Virus record (IMG/VR): IMGVR_UViG_3300025141_001025
Span: 1-20,095 of that record
Length of the DNA: 20,095 nucleotides
Direction: 5' to 3' (one strand)
DNA from: a virus
The notes below the pieces were generated by a model, which was not told the DNA's origin, did not search any database, and was given only the letters and a program-made list of their open reading frames with translations. Made by a program: the position numbers and the translations under genes. This document shows positions 8,683-18,852 of the stretch, piece after piece (positions within the stretch are counted from its first letter, which is position 1; every line of letters starts with the position of its first letter).

Positions 8683-8723
8683 ATTACAAAAGAGAATTAA
8701 TATAAAGTAACCGTTAGGTTACT
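8683..8723 (-). promoter_or_regulatory. 41-nt UAAC-hairpin element, copy A (upstream of the SSAP gene)
   Basis: On the sense (-) strand it reads AGTAACCTAACGGTTACT (perfect 7-bp stem, TAAC loop), 8 variable bases, then ATTCTCTTTTGTAAT. It lies between the stop of the upstream gene (8729) and the SD of the Rad52-like gene. It is one of five copies with identical length and spacing. Confidence 0.75.
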
Positions 8724-8728
8724 CTATG

Positions 8729-8899
8729 TCAATAATCTTTTGCTTTATTTTCAGCCTCAGTAATGGTATTGGAACCCAACTCTATAGGTATAAACTTAAA
8801 CTCGCCATCAACTTCGATAACAAAGTATGGTTTACTACCCAGGCCTGCGTATTCAACAGACATTACCTTAACTCTATCTTCTACATTTGGATTAGACAT
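8729..8899 (-). CDS. Small hypothetical protein (56 aa)
   Basis: I place the start at the ATG ending at 8899 (MSNPNVEDRVKVM), which has GGAGAGG directly upstream. A start 9 codons earlier (8926) would overlap the phosphoesterase gene and has no SD, but cannot be excluded. The protein is mainly beta-strand in character (VKVMSVEYAGLGSKPYFVIE, then FKFIPIELG) and ends ENKAKDY. No Cys, signal or membrane segment is seen, and no family is recognised. It follows the phosphoesterase by 16 bases and is probably in the same transcript. Its stop lies 5 bases before hairpin copy A. Confidence 0.5.
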   Translation of the reverse strand: MSNPNVEDRVKVMSVEYAGLGSKPYFVIEVDGEFKFIPIELGSNTITEAENKAKDY

Positions 8900-10368: not shown

Positions 10369-11919
10369 TCATTGTAGCCGATTTAACTCCAAAGCGAAGC
10401 GTTTCACTTCATCTATGTCGGCCAATCTTGTTATTCCAGATTGTTTCATTATCTGGTGGCACTCCTGTAACAAGTTACCTGTGCTGGTATTGTCTCTACC
10501 AAATACCATCATATCTGATACCCATATTCTTTTAGGTGCTTCTTTGCTTAACCACCTTAAAGCTGGGCCATCAACTAAATTACCACCACCTGAGTATCTT
10601 TCTAGATATTCAGTTGTAACTCGTTTGCCTTTATCTCCTATAATTCTTAAAGAACCTATTTCTCCATAATATGAATTAGAATCTTTATTATCTTCGTATG
10701 TAGAGTTATACATAGCTATCTTTACAGCTGGTAGCATTTGCATAATCTCTAATATATCTTTTCCATTGAAAGACATAGAACCTGAAGCATCTATTAATAT
10801 AGTTCCACCATATACTCTTTGTTTCTGTTGAAATACTTTTCTATCAACACACCAACGATTCATATACTTAGGTGTTACACCGTAGTCCATAGGTCTGTAT
10901 TCTCTACCACCTTTGATTCTACCTTGTAAATTAACATTTAATTCAGGTGTTCTTATAACCATATTTCCCCATCTTCCTGACATATCAGATAAATCAGGTT
11001 CATAGTTTATATCTCCACCGTGTCTTTCAATCATTTCGCTTATTTGATTTCTAGTTTCAAATTCAGCTTCTTCTAATGACATATTCTCTGGCTGACCTTC
11101 TTTAGATTCTTCTTCTTTAGCTTTCATATTAGCTATAGAAGAATTAGCTTTTTTCTTAGCTTCAGCTGCTATTCTTGCAGATTCAAGAACTTGCTCTTGA
11201 GTAGGTTTCTCATTGAAACCATTCTCTTGAAGCATATATTTATATAGTTCTTTTGCTACATTTCTAGTTTTTCTGTAGCTAATTGTATCTGCATATGACC
11301 AACCACCTTTTCTCAACTTGGTTAATCTGTCATAGAAATAGTTTGCTTTTTTTAATACCCATTGAAAATGCATTTTTCTTAATGCTGTAAATTCAGTATC
11401 ATTAGCTGAACTTGCTTCAGTAAGCATATCAAGAATAAGTTCATATTCTCTATTGTGGGCCACCCATTTTTGATAATATTGTTGTTCTTCTTTAGATGGC
11501 CACATACCTGCTAATACAAAACAAAGCATTTCAAATTCAGATGCGTTATACATCATAGTCATAACTTGTTTTCGTATATTTTCTTCACAATCATATAGGT
11601 TTTCTATATATAACCCTCTTCTTGCTAGTAAATAACTAATACGAATTTCTTCTATGATTTCTACGCATTTTTCAGATTCATCAGGTCCTAATTTACCAAC
11701 AGTTTGTGGTGACCATTTAACATGTCCTAATTCGTGTCTTCGTATTGCTCTCGCATGATACTCTCCACATTCAGGACAATCATCGCCAAATGGTACATAC
11801 ATTTCTTTTGATAAGTTAGATGTTCTTGGTCTTTTATTATCTTCGAATACTTTCCATCCTTCTTTCCCCGAAACTATTTCAGGGAAAGGGACTTTCTTAT
11901 TCTTCTTCTGATGTAGCAT
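10369..11919 (-). CDS. VWA-domain protein with N-terminal HExxH metallopeptidase-like region (CobT-like)
   Basis: Two regions are clear. The N-terminal part has CPEC (48-51), RRHELGHVKW (HExxH at 62-66) and, about 20 residues on, IIEEIRISYLL. That spacing matches the zinc ligands of the metallopeptidase-like domain seen in CobT-like/VWA proteins. A helical, charged middle (240-300) leads to a C-terminal von Willebrand A domain: GGTILIDASGSMS gives the MIDAS DxSxS (Asp377, Ser379, Ser381) and WVSDMM gives the later Asp469. Marine phages often carry a CobS/CobT-like pair, although they do not make cobalamin. The real partner reaction is unknown. The start overlaps the AAA+ gene by 23 bases, so the two are translationally coupled and likely work as one complex: the ATPase remodels a target brought by the VWA protein. 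Confidence 0.75.
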   Translation of the reverse strand: MLHQKKNKKVPFPEIVSGKEGWKVFEDNKRPRTSNLSKEMYVPFGDDCPECGEYHARAIRRHELGHVKWSPQTVGKLGPDESEKCVEIIEEIRISYLLARRGLYIENLYDCEENIRKQVMTMMYNASEFEMLCFVLAGMWPSKEEQQYYQKWVAHNREYELILDMLTEASSANDTEFTALRKMHFQWVLKKANYFYDRLTKLRKGGWSYADTISYRKTRNVAKELYKYMLQENGFNEKPTQEQVLESARIAAEAKKKANSSIANMKAKEEESKEGQPENMSLEEAEFETRNQISEMIERHGGDINYEPDLSDMSGRWGNMVIRTPELNVNLQGRIKGGREYRPMDYGVTPKYMNRWCVDRKVFQQKQRVYGGTILIDASGSMSFNGKDILEIMQMLPAVKIAMYNSTYEDNKDSNSYYGEIGSLRIIGDKGKRVTTEYLERYSGGGNLVDGPALRWLSKEAPKRIWVSDMMVFGRDNTSTGNLLQECHQIMKQSGITRLADIDEVKRFALELNRLQ

Positions 11920-12652
11920 TGTTCAACTCTGTTTCATTGATATTTACTTCATCGGATAATGTGACTGCGTCTAATAGTTCTTCAGCTCTTTCTCCAAAGA
12001 TAAGTTCAGATGCATCTTCTTTCTTTAGTCCTTTGTCCATAAGTTCAAAGAACTCTCTCCATGACCTGATTGATAGTCTCTGGTCTGTATCTTCACTTAA
12101 TGAAGTATCATTTATGACACTATGCCATGATTTAGGAAACATCGCTAATGCTTTAGGATGTATCTTATCAACATTAATTTTAACAGGGAACCTATCTTTC
12201 AATGCCATAGGTAAACTCTCAGGTAGAGAGTTCGTAGTTGCAATAACTGTAAATCCCTTAGCAGGCCTTACTGTTTCTTTGTTGTCATTGTTTAATGTCA
12301 ATTGTGCTATATCTTTGTCATCTAATATTGCATGCAAGAATGTCATAGCGTCTGGTGATGCGTGGTCAATTTCATTGACTACTAATCTTCCACCTCTTCG
12401 CCATGCTTGTATTGCAATACCGTCATGCCATTCGAATGAACCACTACTATTAGGTTTATAAAAACCCTCTAGGTTAGCACTCGCAGTATCTTCAGTCATA
12501 GTTATTTGATATACATTTGGTTCGCCTTCCATTGTATATCCTATTTTGTTAGTCGCAGCAGCATATGTTTTACCTGTCCCTGGTGGACCGTATAACAATA
12601 TTCTGTCTGAGTTACCGATAGCATTATCTATCGCTTTCCAACAGTTTTTCAT
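11897..12652 (-). CDS. MoxR-like AAA+ ATPase (CobS-like)
   Basis: This is a compact 251-residue AAA+ protein. Walker A is GPPGTGKT (22-29). A MoxR-type insert follows (DTASANLEGFY, about 55-65), then a Walker B-like LVVNEIDHAS (90-99), sensor 1 at VIATTNS (136-142) and an arginine-finger-like ALKDRF (150-155). The tail is helical and acidic (NNATSEEE). Walker B carries Asn93 where the magnesium-binding Asp is usual, while Glu94 is kept. MoxR ATPases act as chaperones that load or remodel partners with VWA domains, and the downstream overlapping gene is such a partner. The start has an SD about 8 bases upstream (AAAGGAAAACATG). It shares a transcript with the 190-aa and 101-aa genes behind the structured leader L1. 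Confidence 0.78.
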   Translation of the reverse strand: MKNCWKAIDNAIGNSDRILLYGPPGTGKTYAAATNKIGYTMEGEPNVYQITMTEDTASANLEGFYKPNSSGSFEWHDGIAIQAWRRGGRLVVNEIDHASPDAMTFLHAILDDKDIAQLTLNNDNKETVRPAKGFTVIATTNSLPESLPMALKDRFPVKINVDKIHPKALAMFPKSWHSVINDTSLSEDTDQRLSIRSWREFFELMDKGLKKEDASELIFGERAEELLDAVTLSDEVNINETELNNATSEEE

Positions 12653-12663
12653 GTTTTCCTTTC

Positions 12664-12969
12664 CTAAAATGGATTAAAAGGTACAAATCTACAATATATC
12701 TCTATAAATCCATCTTCATTTTTTCTTTGCTTTATCTCAAACTTACCTTTATTTATTAAGTGTGAGATATTCTTTTGTTTCATATGTTCTATGTTAGATT
12801 TAACACCTGATATCCATTTATCAGATGTTCCAAGAACATACCATTCTGTAGGTGTTGATAATAAAGTTCTTACTTTCTCATCAGTTAATAGAGTTGGTTG
12901 TTTACCACTTCTATTAATACCTGCAGCTGGGGGATTTTTTCTTTCAAGTTTACTCTTCTGAATCGTCAC
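12664..12969 (-). CDS. Hypothetical protein (101 aa)
   Basis: No family is recognised. The protein is basic, with a Lys/Arg/Pro-rich N-terminus (KSKLERKNPPAAGINRSGK), then KVRTLLSTPTEWYVLGTSDKW, which looks like a helix followed by strands, and a C-terminal beta-like segment (FIEIYCRFVPFNPF). Its start overlaps the end of the upstream 190-aa gene by 20 bases, and it lies 11 bases before the AAA+ gene, so it is co-expressed with the MoxR/VWA pair. It might be an adaptor or substrate of that complex, but only position suggests this. Confidence 0.55.
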   Translation of the reverse strand: MTIQKSKLERKNPPAAGINRSGKQPTLLTDEKVRTLLSTPTEWYVLGTSDKWISGVKSNIEHMKQKNISHLINKGKFEIKQRKNEDGFIEIYCRFVPFNPF

Positions 12970-13522
12970 GTTTACCTAACCATTCTTCTACATCATCTAT
13001 AAGATGTTCTCCCATATGGTCCATATATTCTACAGTAGTTGACATAGCTGCATTCTGCATTAATTCTTCATTATCAGCTAATACACATTGTATAGCAGTA
13101 GGTTCTGCCATATAGAATTTATGAAATATTTCTTCTCCAATTAAAAACTCTCTAAAATCATTTACAGTTTTCCAATCAAAATCTACTGGTGTATCTGTTT
13201 GTTCTAGATTACTTTTGCTTAGAATCTTAAAGAATCCTGTTAATACTTCCATCTTTCTATATCTATCTAGTTCTAAAGCTTGCATGATTGCTTCTTTAGC
13301 ATTGCTTGCTTCGACTATATATCTAGTAGTTAATGATGGTGCGTCTATATGTGCTACTCTTGATGCAAATAAATCATTATTTACTGCTTTATTCAAGTAA
13401 GTACATATAACATGATACTTTTCTCTTCTATTATTTCTTAATTCAACTGATTCATGTTCAGAGAACATAGATGTATCATCACTATGTTCATGTCCACATT
13501 CACAGTTTTCTTCTTTTGCCAT
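12950..13522 (-). CDS. Hypothetical protein with N-terminal CECGHEH motif (190 aa)
   Basis: I choose the ATG ending at 13522 (MAKEENCECGHEHSDD), which has a strong SD (AGGAGGGAG) about 7 bases upstream. An in-frame GTG at 13555 lies inside the structured leader and is unlikely. Cys7, Cys9, His11 and His13 could bind a metal. The remainder is helical and acidic, with EKYHVICTYLNKAVNNDLFA early, a RYIVEASNAKEAIMQALELD helix and a C-terminal acidic end (EEWLGKRDDSEE). No family is recognised. It is the first gene behind leader L1 and heads the unit that contains the MoxR/VWA pair, so it may be part of that system. Confidence 0.6.
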   Translation of the reverse strand: MAKEENCECGHEHSDDTSMFSEHESVELRNNRREKYHVICTYLNKAVNNDLFASRVAHIDAPSLTTRYIVEASNAKEAIMQALELDRYRKMEVLTGFFKILSKSNLEQTDTPVDFDWKTVNDFREFLIGEEIFHKFYMAEPTAIQCVLADNEELMQNAAMSTTVEYMDHMGEHLIDDVEEWLGKRDDSEE

Positions 13523-13541: not shown

Positions 13542-13722
13542 ATAGCTTGTAACACATAGACAATCCTTACATTACTTAAGTGAGTGATATCTGGGTAAGA
13601 TATGTGACATAATGCCTACTTCATATATGGCACGCCATATATGCTATATCTATGTGCTACAAGCTATCAACATGTACATATACAAGGGTTGTATATTATC
13701 AATCGCTTGATTGTTGATAGCT
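13542..13722 (-). ncRNA. Structured leader L1 with alternative pairing (upstream of the 190-aa/MoxR/VWA unit)
   Basis: The closing stem is 19 bp: 13649-13667 (sense ATAGCTTGTAGCACATAGA) pairs with 13542-13560, all paired in sense RNA with one G-U. Inside are a 9-bp hairpin (CATATATGG-CGTG-CCATATATG, 13622-13643) and a 6-bp hairpin (13587-13603). Upstream, AGCTATCAACA (13712-13722) pairs perfectly over 11 bp with 13662-13672, which overlaps the 5' arm of the closing stem, so the two folds exclude each other. Hairpins 13678-13696 (8 bp) and 13700-13713 (5 bp) sit in between. The closing stem ends about 9 bases before the SD. Confidence 0.6.
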
Positions 13723-13743
13723 TCTAACCTGCTGGGATTAGAA
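13722..13743 (-). repeat. Small hairpin just after the 68-aa gene
   Basis: TTCTAA pairs with TTAGAA, extended by CC/GG with a one-base bulge, around a CAGCA loop. It starts one base after the stop of the upstream gene. It might end the previous transcript, but no U-run follows, so a processing or spacer role is equally possible. Confidence 0.3.
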
Positions 13744-13744
13744 T

Positions 13745-13951
13745 TTAAGTGCCGTAAAAATAACTGCCATTGTTCCTTATCTCATAATTTTGATAAGGTG
13801 TTCGACATCCATTACACCACCATAAATCTGTGTCAATGTCTTGATGAATTTCATCTCCACATTCACAAAATTCTTTCTTACTTTCTTCATGTAAAGCCAT
13901 TAAAGTTTTTTCTACTTCTATTTTCTTTAATATCTTTTTAATAAAGTTCAT
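13745..13951 (-). CDS. Zinc-ribbon protein (68 aa)
   Basis: A basic, helical N-terminus (MNFIKKILKKIEVEKTLM) precedes a zinc ribbon made of CECG (29-32) and CNGC (46-49), WWCNGCRTPYQ, followed by a Tyr/Asn-rich tail. Its start overlaps the previous gene by 4 bases (ATGA). It is the last gene of the small-protein unit behind leader L2. Several genes of the leftward module encode zinc ribbons of this size, hinting at a set of host- or polymerase-binding micro-regulators. No function can be assigned. Confidence 0.6.
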   Translation of the reverse strand: MNFIKKILKKIEVEKTLMALHEESKKEFCECGDEIHQDIDTDLWWCNGCRTPYQNYEIRNNGSYFYGT

Positions 13952-14443: not shown

Positions 14444-14613
14444 TATTCCTCCTCTTCAACAGGCATACCAACATATTTAGCAACAAGTTCTATCATCTTC
14501 TGATGTGTTTGTAATATATCATTGATGCGAACTAAAGTATCTGCTATATCTACATTTACTGTATGTTGATTGTAATCTTCCCAATCTTTTTCTTTTTCGG
14601 TATAGTCAACCAT
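14443..14613 (-). CDS. Small acidic helical protein (56 aa)
   Basis: This 56-codon frame runs from an ATG that overlaps the previous stop (TAATG at 14611-14615) to a TAA that overlaps the next ATG. The product begins MVDYTEKEKDWEDYNQHTVN and contains a probable amphipathic helix (IADTLVRINDILQTHQKMIE). It ends PVEEEE, with the Glu codons (GAAGAGGAGGAA) doubling as the SD for the next gene. Both overlaps, and an SD (GGAGAGGAG) from the upstream gene, support it as real. Its function is unknown. Confidence 0.6.
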   Translation of the reverse strand: MVDYTEKEKDWEDYNQHTVNVDIADTLVRINDILQTHQKMIELVAKYVGMPVEEEE

Positions 14614-14840
14614 TATTGCTCCTCTCCTATATTATTCATAGCAATTTTCTTATTAATATTATATATCATCATCTCTAACAACATTCCTGAATGTCCTGAA
14701 ATCATGTCCATAATATTCTCATTTTTACTCCACATATCTAATTCTCTTAACATGAATATTAATATGTCATTCTTTTGTGCTATTGTTAATTGGTCAAGCA
14801 TTTCTTGATACTCCAATTGTATAGCTTTCATTTGTGCCAT
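14613..14840 (-). CDS. Small helical protein (75 aa) behind leader L2
   Basis: The start ATG ending at 14840 has a perfect SD (AAGGAGGATAAATG). The protein is helical and Met/Ile-rich (LEYQEMLDQLTIAQKNDILI, DMISGHSGMLLEMMIYNINK) and ends in IGEEQ. No Cys pair or obvious membrane span is present, although ILIFML (26-31) is hydrophobic. No family is recognised. It is the first gene of a unit of five overlapping small genes (to 13745). The whole unit is preceded by the long structured leader L2. Confidence 0.58.
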   Translation of the reverse strand: MAQMKAIQLEYQEMLDQLTIAQKNDILIFMLRELDMWSKNENIMDMISGHSGMLLEMMIYNINKKIAMNNIGEEQ

Positions 14841-14855
14841 TTATCCTCCTTAATA

Positions 14856-15099
14856 GATAGCTTGTAACACACAACCAGCAATATCGTCATATTACCTACC
14901 CCCTAAGACAAACTTAGGGTTACTTTGAACCTACTGTGTTTATATTCTTTAAAGTACTAATAAAATATACAATGGGGACACCAGCCTTCCATTGACGAAG
15001 CAGTTTCTTCACTCCCTTCGGTTCGATTATGTGCTACAAGCTACCTACTTTCAGTGGTTAAGCAACAGGGCTAGTTCTTAACTCTTACTAATAGATAGC
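14856..15099 (-). ncRNA. Structured leader L2, second member of the L1 leader family
   Basis: The closing stem pairs 15030-15043 (sense TAGCTTGTAGCACA) with 14858-14871 (TGTGTTACAAGCTA), 14 bp with one G-U in sense RNA. Upstream, GCTATCT (15093-15099) pairs with AGGTAGC (15040-15046), overlapping the closing stem's 5' arm, the same mutually exclusive design as in L1. Internal hairpins are CCCTAAG/CTTAGGG (14901-14919), AATAT/ATATT (14880-14893) and CAATGG/CCATTG (14970-14994). After the closing stem come TATTA and AAGGAGG, then the ATG. The interior is unlike that of L1. The 428 bases between 14841 and 15269 hold no convincing gene. Confidence 0.6.
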
Positions 15100-15186
15100 T
15101 AATCTTCGTCTCCCTTTTTCATTCAGGGGCAACGCAATCTCCCTTTTATTTTAAGAGATTTTATACCATTTACTTCCTTTATTATT

Positions 15187-15210: not shown

Positions 15211-15257
15211 AAAAAAAAAGCTAGAAACAGCTGGAACATTACTGCTCCAACTGTTCT
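15211..15257 (-). terminator. Rho-independent terminator after the SSB-like gene
   Basis: In the leftward direction AACAGTTGGA pairs with TCCAGCTGTT (one G-U) around a 10-nt loop, followed by TCTAGC and an unbroken run of nine T. It lies just after the stop of the SSB-like gene at 15270. This is the clearest intrinsic terminator of the window. Confidence 0.85.
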
Positions 15258-15269
15258 ATCTTTTATTAT

Positions 15270-15707
15270 CTAACTAGGGTTATTTTCATTACTTGGATAT
15301 ACATACACAGTGTCATCTTTAACTGGTGCATTCCAAACATCTGTTATAATTAGTCTGTTATCATACTTAACTTCCCCGCTCTCTGGGTCTGTCCAAGTAT
15401 TTCTTTCAATTCTACCACCTACTTGTATTCTCATAAATGGTGCTTTATAGTCTTCATTAATAGGTTGTTCTTTTAATGCTTCTGCTATTTCAACAGCTAC
15501 ATCATCAAATGCACTAGCTATAAATGATGCTTTCTTTCCCTCAGTTCCGTCCTTAATAAAGTTAAGTCCGTTAATCCAAGGTGTTCCTGCGTCTGATACA
15601 CCTGTTCTAGGTTGTCCGTCTTCAGTTACTGTAGTTAGTACTCCGATATGTACGAATTTGTTAATTACGCTCATATCGCCTTGATAGTTTTTAAGTAGTT
15701 TATTCAT
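15270..15707 (-). CDS. Divergent single-stranded DNA-binding protein-like (OB fold)
   Basis: This 145-residue protein matches the order of the bacterial SSB core without being a close relative. It has an N-terminal strand region (FVHIGVLTTV), then KKASFIASAFDDVAVEIAEAL (about 58-79) like the SSB 'W/F...AFG..AE..A.YL' helix block. Next come FMRIQVGGRIERNTWTDPES and KYDNRLIITDVWNAP, like the '..VEGRL..R.W.D..G......' strands. The acidic PF-type tail of SSB is replaced by NENNPS. It would coat single strands during recombination or replication and fits with the Rad52-like protein. The ATG has an SD (AAAGGA, 8 bases upstream) and hairpin copy B upstream. The assignment is by pattern, so moderate. 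Confidence 0.5.
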   Translation of the reverse strand: MNKLLKNYQGDMSVINKFVHIGVLTTVTEDGQPRTGVSDAGTPWINGLNFIKDGTEGKKASFIASAFDDVAVEIAEALKEQPINEDYKAPFMRIQVGGRIERNTWTDPESGEVKYDNRLIITDVWNAPVKDDTVYVYPSNENNPS

Positions 15708-15737: not shown

Positions 15738-15778
15738 ATTACAATAGAGAATAGATTAAGAGAAACCGTTAGGTTTCT
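15738..15778 (-). promoter_or_regulatory. 41-nt UAAC-hairpin element, copy B (upstream of the SSB-like gene)
   Basis: The sense strand has AGAAACCTAACGGTTTCT (perfect 7-bp stem, TAAC loop), 8 bases, then ATTCTCTATTGTAAT. About 30 bases separate it from the ATG, and TATAAT lies 3 bases after the element. Compared with copy A, two stem pairs differ in a compensatory way (GT..AC to GA..TC). Confidence 0.75.
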
Positions 15779-15782
15779 TATT

Positions 15783-15917
15783 TTAACTATTCTTCTCTTC
15801 CTTATCTAACCACCATTTGGTAGTCATTCTGTATTCATAACATGGATTACAAAATGTTAGTCCTGCCATTGGTAGTTCATTGGTTTTACATACTGTACAT
15901 TTAGTTTTTACACTCAT
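15783..15917 (-). CDS. Zinc-finger micropeptide (44 aa)
   Basis: This 44-codon frame starts at the ATG ending at 15917, with GAAAGGAAA just upstream as SD, and ends in TAA 5 bases before hairpin copy B. It reads MSVKTKCTVCKTNELPMAGL, then TFCNPCYEYRM and a Trp/Lys-rich end. CTVC (7-10) and CNPC (23-26) form a four-Cys zinc site. Its size and design match the other zinc micropeptides of the leftward module. Function unknown. Confidence 0.6.
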   Translation of the reverse strand: MSVKTKCTVCKTNELPMAGLTFCNPCYEYRMTTKWWLDKEEKNS

Positions 15918-16090: not shown

Positions 16091-16131
16091 ATTACTATAG
16101 AGAATGATTAATGAGTAATCGTTAGATTACT
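16091..16131 (-). promoter_or_regulatory. 41-nt UAAC-hairpin element, copy C (upstream of the membrane micropeptide)
   Basis: The sense strand has AGTAATCTAACGATTACT (perfect 7-bp stem), 8 bases, then ATTCTCTATAGTAAT. The stem pair next to the loop is T-A here rather than C-G, another compensatory change. It lies 13 bases from the ATG of the 24-aa gene. Confidence 0.75.
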
Positions 16132-16153
16132 TCTTCTCACTTTTATTCTAAAT

Positions 16154-16464: not shown

Positions 16465-16505
16465 ATTACTGTAGAGAATAAAGTTAAAGAAACTGTTAGG
16501 TTTCT
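16465..16505 (-). promoter_or_regulatory. 41-nt UAAC-hairpin element, copy D (upstream of the 77-aa gene)
   Basis: The sense strand has AGAAACCTAACAGTTTCT (7-bp stem, the loop-closing pair C-A in the sense strand, G-U in the opposite strand), 8 bases, then ATTCTCTACAGTAAT. It is followed 17 bases later by the ATG of the 77-aa gene. Confidence 0.75.
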
Positions 16506-16509
16506 AATT

Positions 16510-16557
16510 CTACCTACCTACATAATTAATAGAAAGTATGTAAGCAAGATGGAACAT
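16510..16557 (-). CDS. Possible micropeptide (15 aa)
   Basis: A 15-codon frame (MFHLAYILSINYVGR) lies between hairpin copies E and D, in the place where the other copies have a gene. It ends 4 bases before copy D. It has no good SD (TATAAAGTAATATG), so it may be only the untranslated spacer of a transcript that starts at copy E. Evidence is positional and weak. Confidence 0.2.
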   Translation of the reverse strand: MFHLAYILSINYVGR

Positions 16558-16567
16558 ATTACTTTAT

Positions 16568-16608
16568 ATCACAACAGAGAATGATGAATTAGAATGCGTT
16601 AGCATTCA
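16568..16608 (-). promoter_or_regulatory. 41-nt UAAC-hairpin element, copy E (start of the leftward module)
   Basis: The sense strand has GAATGC-TAAC-GCATTC (6 bp), 8 bases, then ATTCTCTGTTGTGAT. It is the rightmost copy and carries a completely different stem sequence that still pairs, the strongest support for selection on structure. It probably marks the first leftward transcript or its leader. Confidence 0.7.
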
Positions 16609-16944: not shown

Positions 16945-18852
16945 ATGGCAAGAATAGTATGTCAAGCGAAAGGATGTAAGAACTGGCTTAAAGGTAAGCA
17001 ACGTAAGTTCTGTTCTGAGCAATGTAATAAGAGAACCTGGGCTCAAAAGAAGAGAGACGGTAAAGAATTACCAACTAAACCTATAAATCAGGAATTTAAA
17101 TCAGAAGAAGGGAACTATGCTTCTATACGTAGAGGTAGATACTATGATGAATTTAGAGAGAGATGGGCAGAACCTTTAGCTACAGGAGAGATAACCACAA
17201 TGGACGTGGCCTCACAGCTTGAATGTACGTCAGCAACCGTATCACGTATGCTCGCTGCATACAAGATAGACAGAACTACAGAGATAAAAGCAGAAGGTTG
17301 GGAAGTAACTGAAGAATCAATTAATGATTTAGAAAATTTTTCTAGCTTCCGCAACAAATATTTTGCTACAGAAACGGGGGAAAAGTATGAGACTGCTGAC
17401 TTTCATATGAATTGGATAAATAATATTAATGACTCTATAGCTAACGGTAAAGAGCTTTTAATATTAAGTCCACCTAGGCATGGCAAGACAGAACTATTAA
17501 TACACTTCGCTGTCTACCAGATAATGAAGAACCCTAACATAAGAATCATGTGGGTAGGTGGAAACGAAGACATAGCTAAGAATGCTGTGAGCTCTGTGTT
17601 AGACCATCTAGATGAGAATGAAAGACTTAGAGAAGACTTTTGTCCTCCAGGTAAAAACTTTAAACCTGACAATAGGTCGGGAAAGAATTGGTCACAGAAT
17701 CAATTTACTGTAGGTACAAGAACAGTACCAGGTATTAAATCTCCAACAATGGTTGCTGTAGGTAAAGGTGGAAAGATACTTTCAAGAGACTGTGACTTAA
17801 TAATTGCAGATGACATTGAGGACCACCAGACAACAATGCAACCTGGTGCTAGAGAAAATACCAGACAGTGGTGGACAACAACTCTTTCTTCAAGAAAAGA
17901 AGAACATACTGCTGTTGTAGTAATAGGTTCAAGACAACACTCTGATGATTTATATCACCACTTACTTTCTAATGATAGTTTTACAACAATAGTTGAAACA
18001 GCACACAGTATAGATTGTAATATACCTGACCATTTAACTGATGAACATAAAAGCTGTATGTTATGGCCAAGTAAGAGAACACACAAATGGTTGATGTCAC
18101 GTATGCAAGCTGCAGAGACTACTGGTGGTAGACAGATATACGAAATGGTTTATTACAACCAGGCATATGTAGAAGGTACACAAATCTTTACTATGAATAT
18201 GATTGACCAATGTATGAGACCTGACTTTGTTTTAGGGCAGGTACCAGGTAACTTACATTTAGTTGCTGGACTTGACCCTGCTTCTTCTGGATATCAAGCT
18301 GCTGTTCTATGGGGAATAAATGCTTATAGAGGAGAACTATATCTTATAGATATTGAAAATAGACAAGGTGGAGGAGTTAAACATGCTCTACAGATTATGT
18401 CTGACTGGTTTCATAAATATGATTTACAACATTGGATTATTGAAGAGAATGGTTTTCAATCTGCTATTAGACAAGATGATAAAATAAAAGAATTTGTTTT
18501 AAGAAGTGGTATTACTATGCAAGGACATGTTACTGGAAAAAATAAACATGACCCTATGTATGGTGTAGGTTCTATGGCTGGATTATTTGAAAATCAAAAA
18601 ATATTTTTACCGACAGGAAATTCTGAAAGTCTTGCTAAAGTTAATGCTTATAGACAACAATTATTATACTTTGATGGAAAGCCTGTAACTACTAGGAATA
18701 AAGAAAAGACAGATATTGTTATGGCAGGATGGTTTCCAATGAAGGTATTTAGAAGAATGAACAAAGAGCAGTTAGCGACAATGGGATTAGATTATAACGC
18801 AAGTTTCACAGACTTTGATAGAACCGACTATAATGAGGCACCATGGGGATAG
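16945..18852 (+). CDS. terL: Terminase large subunit with N-terminal zinc/HTH extension
   Basis: TerL is the ATP-driven motor and nuclease that cuts and packs phage DNA into proheads. Walker A-like SPPRHGKTE is at 175-183, with Walker B CDLIIADDIED at 283-293, and WVGGNEDI and VIGSRQHSDD are coupling-type motifs. The RNase H-like nuclease has AGLDPASSGYQA (Asp444), WIIEENGFQS (Glu500/501) and the late HDPMYGVGSM and TDIVMAGW regions. The first ~110 residues are unusual: a Cys cluster (Cys6, Cys11, Cys23, Cys27) and an HTH-like segment (MDVASQLECTSATVSRMLAAYK, about 86-107 in two halves) resembling small-terminase DNA-binding domains. No separate terS gene lies upstream, so this may be a fused TerS-like head. 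The length of 635 aa is above usual. It overlaps the portal gene. Confidence 0.9.
   Translation: MARIVCQAKGCKNWLKGKQRKFCSEQCNKRTWAQKKRDGKELPTKPINQEFKSEEGNYASIRRGRYYDEFRERWAEPLATGEITTMDVASQLECTSATVSRMLAAYKIDRTTEIKAEGWEVTEESINDLENFSSFRNKYFATETGEKYETADFHMNWINNINDSIANGKELLILSPPRHGKTELLIHFAVYQIMKNPNIRIMWVGGNEDIAKNAVSSVLDHLDENERLREDFCPPGKNFKPDNRSGKNWSQNQFTVGTRTVPGIKSPTMVAVGKGGKILSRDCDLIIADDIEDHQTTMQPGARENTRQWWTTTLSSRKEEHTAVVVIGSRQHSDDLYHHLLSNDSFTTIVETAHSIDCNIPDHLTDEHKSCMLWPSKRTHKWLMSRMQAAETTGGRQIYEMVYYNQAYVEGTQIFTMNMIDQCMRPDFVLGQVPGNLHLVAGLDPASSGYQAAVLWGINAYRGELYLIDIENRQGGGVKHALQIMSDWFHKYDLQHWIIEENGFQSAIRQDDKIKEFVLRSGITMQGHVTGKNKHDPMYGVGSMAGLFENQKIFLPTGNSESLAKVNAYRQQLLYFDGKPVTTRNKEKTDIVMAGWFPMKVFRRMNKEQLATMGLDYNASFTDFDRTDYNEAPWG

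Follow-up and report, generated by a model that had tools for sequence, protein, structure and literature searches.

Leader RNAs in which helices compete for a strand are already known. In riboswitches and other alternating-helix leaders (antisequestor/sequestor or antiterminator/terminator), a shared strand pairs in alternative ways next to the Shine-Dalgarno sequence (SD) or a terminator. Phage leaders that are controlled by RNA structure or by double-strand cleavage include the lambda cIII mRNA, with its alternative structures, and the RNase III sites of T7. In integron cassette arrays, variable modules are exchanged between constant, recombination-competent arms, with precise gain and loss of units. 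GOLLD, ROOL and other large RNAs are structured RNAs known mostly from metagenomes and phages (PMC12286853, PMC2864571), and the TIGR arrays of TIGR-Tas systems, also found in phages, consist of RNA units in tandem, part constant and part variable (PMC12045711).

The leader described here, L2, lies in a 20,095-base viral record of a tailed phage (IMGVR_UViG_3300025141_001025), the whole of which was analysed and is referred to as the window. Like a second leader, L1, it consists of a constant frame of three arms (A, B and C) that encloses two inserts, e1 between A and B and e2 between B and C. Each of the two leaders precedes an early gene block. The frame resembles the alternating-helix leaders in the alternative pairing of a shared strand, in its leader position and in carrying a conserved structured element on the regulatory helix. 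It differs from riboswitch-type leaders in that a constant sequence is combined with about 212 insert families, in that the insert is replaced before the same gene and in having no Rfam match. The lambda cIII and T7 sites, in turn, are single structures of fixed design and are not known to exchange modules or to share a third competing arm across hundreds of phages. GOLLD and ROOL have long fixed architectures, whereas the phage frame is short and repeated, has variable inserts and matches no Rfam family. The guides of TIGR arrays are short, whereas the inserts of the phage frame are long structured elements; membership of TIGR-Tas was ruled out, as no Tas protein with a Nop domain (PF01798) was found in any of 30 contigs. 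Unlike integron cassettes, the inserts fold as non-coding RNA, and conservation of the constant arms is at the level of RNA pairing.

A search of Rfam 15 at the gathering score (including riboswitches, T-box, GOLLD, ROOL, OLE, IMES and tRNA) gave no matches in the window or in 14 array-bearing loci, and at E values of up to 10 the window gave only sub-threshold, chance-like matches. No counterpart was found in the literature on phage structured RNAs and leaders (open-access papers). We know of no RNA class in which a constant frame exchanges hundreds of unrelated structured modules at fixed positions. Judged by its sequences, the leader RNA looks like a new modular RNA class. The novelty is one of evolution and architecture, as the leader belongs to none of the named RNA families tested and a frame with an open fold repertoire has no counterpart in Rfam or the open-access papers; in its switch principle, which is known, the leader would work like an alternating-helix attenuator or sequestor. 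If the inserts prove to be neutral, the novelty of the class would shrink.

The minus strand of the window encodes a single-strand annealing protein (PHROG match) and a metallophosphoesterase/exonuclease, a gene related to a PHROG of unknown function that is VWA-like as judged by eye, and a MoxR/CobS-like AAA ATPase, which in a comparison with isolated phages is only distantly related to the CobS genes of cyanophages (27-28% identity). The terminase has relatives in an Actinomycetota MAG (89%) and a Gammaproteobacteria MAG (61%), which is not decisive for the host; one unit (L271) sits in a contig binned as a Gammaproteobacteria MAG. The features of the window and of its two leaders are as follows.

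16945-18852: terminase large subunit
15225-15256, minus strand: intrinsic terminator of the gene upstream of L2 (15270-15707), a 14-bp stem followed by CTAGCTTTTT
15160-15168, minus strand: candidate extended -10 promoter TGGTATAAA for the L2 transcript, weak and identified by eye
14853-15099, minus strand: whole L2 leader, with arms A, B and C, followed by AGGAGG and ATG
15099-15091, minus strand: L2 A arm GCTATCTAT, pairs 9/9 with the outer half of B
15049-15090, minus strand: L2 e1 insert, with an AGUA/GAA internal loop, a covarying hairpin and a loop with GCCCUGUU
15048-15029, minus strand: L2 B arm GTAGGTAGCTTGTAGCACAT, made up of GTAGGTAGC-TTGTAGCACAT
15040-15048, minus strand: outer half of L2 B, GTAGGTAGC, pairs with A or with the outer half of C
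15029-15039, minus strand: inner half of L2 B, TTGTAGCACAT, pairs with the inner half of C
14873-15028, minus strand: L2 e2 insert, 156 nt with several hairpins
14872-14853, minus strand: L2 C arm GTGTGTTACAAGCTATCTAT, made up of GTGTGTTACAA-GCTATCTAT
14862-14872, minus strand: inner half of L2 C, GTGTGTTACAA
14853-14861, minus strand: outer half of L2 C, GCTATCTAT, competes with A for the outer half of B; 2 nt from the SD
14850-14845, minus strand: L2 SD AGGAGG; GGATA just downstream could pair weakly with a freed outer arm of C
14840, minus strand: L2 start codon ATG
14613-14840, minus strand: first gene under L2, 75 amino acids, no family; homologues behind units in 16 leaders
13722-13745, minus strand: small hairpin with a CCCAGCAGG loop, directly 5' of the A arm in L1-type leaders and kept in L002 and L003
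13721-13713, minus strand: L1 A arm GCTATCAAC
13672-13712, minus strand: L1 e1 insert, two small hairpins with an ACCCTT loop
13671-13651, minus strand: L1 B arm GTTGATAGC-TTGTAGCACATA
13559-13650, minus strand: L1 e2 insert
13558-13538, minus strand: L1 C arm TATGTGTTACAA-GCTATTAAT
13537-13531, minus strand: L1 SD
13522, minus strand: L1 start codon ATG
12950-13522, minus strand: first gene under L1, 190 amino acids, followed by the AAA ATPase and VWA-like genes; homologues behind units in 44 leaders
11897-12652 and 10369-11919, minus strand: the CobS/MoxR-like AAA ATPase and the adjoining protein that is VWA-like by eye

The earlier note on this DNA had described L2 as repeating the A-B-C design of L1 around a different interior, and it was right both about where the leader lies and about its anatomy: L1 follows the same plan, and the inserts of the two leaders are unrelated. 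In L2 the B-C stem is 20 bp long, and A and the outer half of C are complementary to the same half of B. Between the two leaders there are compensatory changes in all three arms (GCTATCAAC/GTTGATAGC/GCTATTAAT in L1 versus GCTATCTAT/GTAGGTAGC/GCTATCTAT in L2). The fold z-scores are -5.0 for L2 and -6.1 for L1, and none of 200 shuffles was equally stable. The terminator at 15225-15256 separates the gene at 15270-15707 from the L2 transcript; a search for -35/-10 pairs did not return the candidate promoter at 15160-15168. The two controlled units are adjacent, as had also been claimed, with L2 heading the operon and L1 lying inside the same minus-strand cluster.

The earlier note had suggested a search for the closing stem with variable interiors. 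A generalised finder (TAGC..GCTA anchors, an inner stem of at least 11 bp and an outer stem of at least 4 bp) returned 252 distinct B..C units in related viral contigs, and a later independent batch provided 72 further distinct units, with a 9/9 A arm in 59 of them. Counted with redundancy, there were 333 units in the fetched loci compared with four in the reversed sequence and none in dinucleotide shuffles; the frame shared by L1 and L2 is therefore not due to chance. Pattern scans of IMG/VR, with one arm or with both arms and a gap, found at least about 120 stretches each. The exact 20-nt B arm was absent from 84,980 bacterial and archaeal genomes, and no L2-like sequence was present in 50,697 phage records. 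Of the 27 loci that carry the AAA gene and extend 6 kb upstream of it, 22 contain a unit. The carriers are mostly one phage group: the terminase is 52-74% identical to that of the window in 29 of 49 carrier contigs. Several of the remaining carrier contigs are short fragments, and the 71.8-kb contig of L109 lacks both marker genes.

Each contig carries one to four units, which lie on one strand in nearly every contig and cluster in one or two positions, either at a terminator or where a conserved operon begins. Among array-final units, 79 of 150 have an SD and start codon no more than 40 nt away, compared with 6 of 102 for non-final units and about 7% for random positions; the other 71 final units are farther from a start. 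As in cis-regulatory leaders, the units are found directly upstream of the SD and start of conserved genes and on the same strand. The outcome that the earlier note had named as speaking against its interpretation, a shared stem that is a dispersed repeat unrelated to gene starts, was not observed, given the one to four B-type arms per contig and the association of the stem with gene starts.

Read as sense RNA, the B-C stem is paired in 95-100% of cases at each of its 20 positions (233 units). Wobbles (G.U in the sense strand) occur at about five positions, at four of which the antisense strand pairs in only 6-17%. The outer nine nucleotides of the stem arms are near-constant in sequence and the inner half is variable. 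Among the 69 units with noncanonical inner arms, 60 pair over 10-13+ bp with their own partner, compared with about four expected for swapped partners. The near-constant outer nucleotides and the covariation of the inner arms with their own partners show that the outer half is constrained in sequence and that the inner half is merely paired. A MITE or dispersed inverted repeat was rejected on the grounds of the strand-specific wobbles and the location of the units.

The A arm is present upstream in 109 of 157 arrays, compared with 4.9 expected after shuffling. In 192 of 252 units it is 9/9 complementary to the B of the same unit; this figure also counts units in which the C arm of the preceding unit serves as A. 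The possibility that A is a mere remnant of a C arm is disfavoured by the truncated A arms, which in most leaders with a single unit still match their own B at 9/9 positions, and by L1, where A is altered together with B. As in alternating-helix leaders, one strand has two conserved, mutually exclusive pairings. Both A and the outer half of C are complementary to the same half of B in 58 of the 79 units within 40 nt of a start, and in 54 of these 58 the A-B pairing is at least as stable as the C-B pairing. The retention of both exclusive pairings argues for a switch over a static fold. The full B-C stem is favoured over the A-B state by 6.2 kcal/mol in L2 and 4.8 kcal/mol in L1 (Vienna energies), and a switch would therefore need a factor that biases the choice, co-transcriptional folding or noncanonical pairs that are not modelled.

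In some relatives the frame is joined to terminators or to further competing helices. In L103, L133 and L187 an intrinsic terminator capped by an e1-type element uses the outer arm of C as its 5' side, and the same e1-type element is found on terminators with different, compensating stems in L151, L173 and L199. Downstream of the arrays of L036, L041, L043, L050 and L156 there is a second three-strand set, in which the SD lies in a helix that can be broken by an upstream strand and in which GCCC-type or ACCC-type loops again occur in the first hairpin. The earlier proposal that the frame is the switch gains support from the co-conservation of two exclusive pairings of the same half of B in gene-proximal units, from the terminator variants built with the outer arm of C and from the SD-sequestering sets downstream of some arrays; from these we infer the switching itself. 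Pairing of the outer half of C with the 5' UTR before the start is weak and only modestly enriched (27 observed compared with 15.3 expected, with a maximum of 23 in 100 shuffles), and such a 'D arm' was dropped as a general feature for this reason. In L2 the SD is strongly sequestered in neither state, and the pairing of the outer half of C with GGATA is weak.

Three-strand SD-sequestor/antisequestor arrangements were seen downstream of arrays in L041, L042, L036, L037, L043, L046, L050, L051, L156, L174, L221 and L251. They have different sequences and the same 1-2-3 logic, with a CCC-containing loop in the 1:2 hairpin, and could constitute an RNA switch family of their own.

When the arrays are split at the arms, 428 segments are obtained that fall into about 212 similarity clusters, 15 of which occur in both slots, and insert families are common to different phages. 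In the commonest A-B insert, an AGUA/GAA internal loop (bulged-G-like, as judged by eye) is combined with a covarying hairpin and a CCCUGUU loop. The covariation score of the commonest e1 helix is 0.357 compared with 0.195 for shuffled alignments (0 of 500 shuffles), with 47 doubly changed cells compared with 14. A covariance model (R1) of this commonest A-B insert finds the copy in the window (15040-15099), which was part of the build set, with an E value of 1e-14, together with more than 50 others. The A-B insert is more stable than the B-C insert, which is hypervariable. Representative inserts fold better than shuffles (mean z of -1.17). The claim of a modular RNA class, in which a shared frame holds different inserts, is strongly supported by the 252 units, the range of insert families and the pairing at the RNA level.

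A T-arm-like hairpin occurs in four of the 212 insert clusters, compared with 0.45 expected and a maximum of two in 100 shuffles; ARAGORN found no tRNA or tmRNA genes in the loci scanned. On the minus strand of L136 there is a tRNA-like fold (GGGCGTG...GAGGGTTCAACTCCCTCCACGTCCA) with a 7-bp acceptor-like stem and a T arm, which ARAGORN did not call. The next start codon after the array follows this fold at a distance of about 90 nt.

Inserts are exchanged in front of unchanged genes. In 15 of 22 unit pairs (not independent of one another) that precede genes at least 97% identical, e2 is unrelated and the arms are about 94% identical, and the conserved aptamer linked to a gene class that characterizes riboswitches is not seen. 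In L003 and L004 the gene and the arms are identical and e2 is different. The e2 insert of L2 is the same in L034 and L059 and is replaced in L002. Where both slots could be compared (gene at least 90% identical), e1 was kept and e2 replaced in nine pairs, and the reverse was found in three. L059, which is near-identical to the window (the AAA fragment is identical), has one extra B-e-C unit exactly between the C arm of L2 and the SD. The repertoire is not saturated, with interiors not previously seen in 61 of the 72 out-of-sample units. Assembly error is unlikely as a general cause of the differences, since the same inserts recur across many samples and phages. From these comparisons the B-C insert appears to turn over faster than the downstream gene, and both the RNA class and cassette exchange are well supported. 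The earlier note had also suggested that the interior is a sensor or protein site, probably too simple a picture: the slots number at least two, and a sensor matched to its gene fits poorly with a B-C insert that is exchanged in front of downstream genes 97-100% identical to each other.

The sequence comparisons establish the frame and its conservation as RNA, the two competing complementarities, the location at gene starts and the exchange of inserts. On this basis we propose, with a probability of about 0.52, that L2 (like L1) is a cis-acting structured 5' leader RNA in which A and the outer half of C exchange on B by three-strand branch migration. A, B and C form the constant frame, with e1 and e2 as exchangeable structured cassettes. 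In state I, A would pair with the outer half of B and the inner halves of B and C with each other, leaving the outer half of C free; in state II, the full 20-bp B-C stem would form and A would be free. We infer that this exchange takes place in the cell and controls translation or termination. Whether the downstream operon is translated or read through would depend on the partner of the outer half of C, because this arm lies 2 nt from the SD in L2 and, in related leaders, serves as the 5' arm of a terminator or can pair before the start. It speaks against the proposal that a free outer half of C would signify OFF in the terminator variants but could signify ON at the SD. A factor that biases the choice would most likely act at the e1 insert, with its conserved CCCUGUU loop, and e2 cassettes would be exchanged by recombination at the conserved arms, perhaps via the phage's own annealing protein.

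The main rival explanation is that the arrays are made or processed out as trans-acting structured RNAs, with the frame as a scaffold and the cassettes as the functional part, for example as decoys or mimics against host defences or competing phages. It would explain the rapid replacement of inserts, and it is consistent with an e2 insert that is replaced far more rapidly than the downstream gene changes, the unsaturated repertoire (61 of 72 new units with unseen interiors), the inserts common to different phages and to both slots, the arrays that end in a terminator followed by promoter-like sequence and the few inserts with a tRNA-like T arm (four of 212 clusters versus 0.45 expected). However, 79 of 150 final units are directly before an SD and start, the competition between A and the outer half of C is kept in the last units, no insert resembles a known RNA family and the decoy idea is without a target. 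We consider this explanation unlikely. It is quite improbable that the 20-bp B-C stem is an RNase III processing site or an mRNA 5' stabiliser and the inserts freely recombining filler. The RNase III intergenic sites of T7 early mRNA are the model for such a stem, which offers about two helical turns of near-perfect duplex just upstream of the SD, and the content and length of the inserts do vary widely. Yet a generic duplex needs no constant outer sequence, 9/9 A arm or preserved G.U pattern, and the inserts are conserved families with covariation and with folding energies below those of shuffles (mean z of -1.17).

Constant terminal arms around variable interiors, the precise gain or loss of a unit between L059 and the window and the exchange of cassettes between phages would also fit a DNA-level element without RNA function, such as a MITE-like mobile inverted repeat, an integron-like attachment site or a recombination hot spot. 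This is very improbable: through its wobbles the palindrome is imperfect in DNA but perfect in one RNA strand, the units have a single orientation relative to genes and are not dispersed, and the inserts covary as RNA.

The cis-acting leader with branch-migrating arms remains the preferred reading. It is possible, although doubtful, that the frame is part of a genetic element of a new kind, an RNA cassette system in which phages retain the branch-migrating frame unchanged at set positions in their leaders and trade an open-ended range of structured modules via it. Selection would favour diversity among the modules, tRNA-like ones included, with the frame coupling the state of the module to expression of the early operon, and would serve, for example, as counter-defence RNAs or in phage-phage competition. 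The phage frame allows the evolution of modular RNAs to be tested in phages that are abundant and so far uncultured, and its one scaffold holds small RNA folds as a natural library. It also raises the question of what selects for replacement of the module while the gene stays unchanged.

A second repeat family is found on the plus strand of the window (ATTACNATAGAGAATNNN..GAAACCGTTAGGTTTCT), with four to five copies that are 73-81% alike (8683-8734, 15738-15789, 16091-16142, 16465-16516 and 16567-16602). The repeats contain a small hairpin, the stem of which is altered on both sides between copies. Their sequence is unrelated to the A-B-C frame, and several copies lie near the starts of small minus-strand genes.
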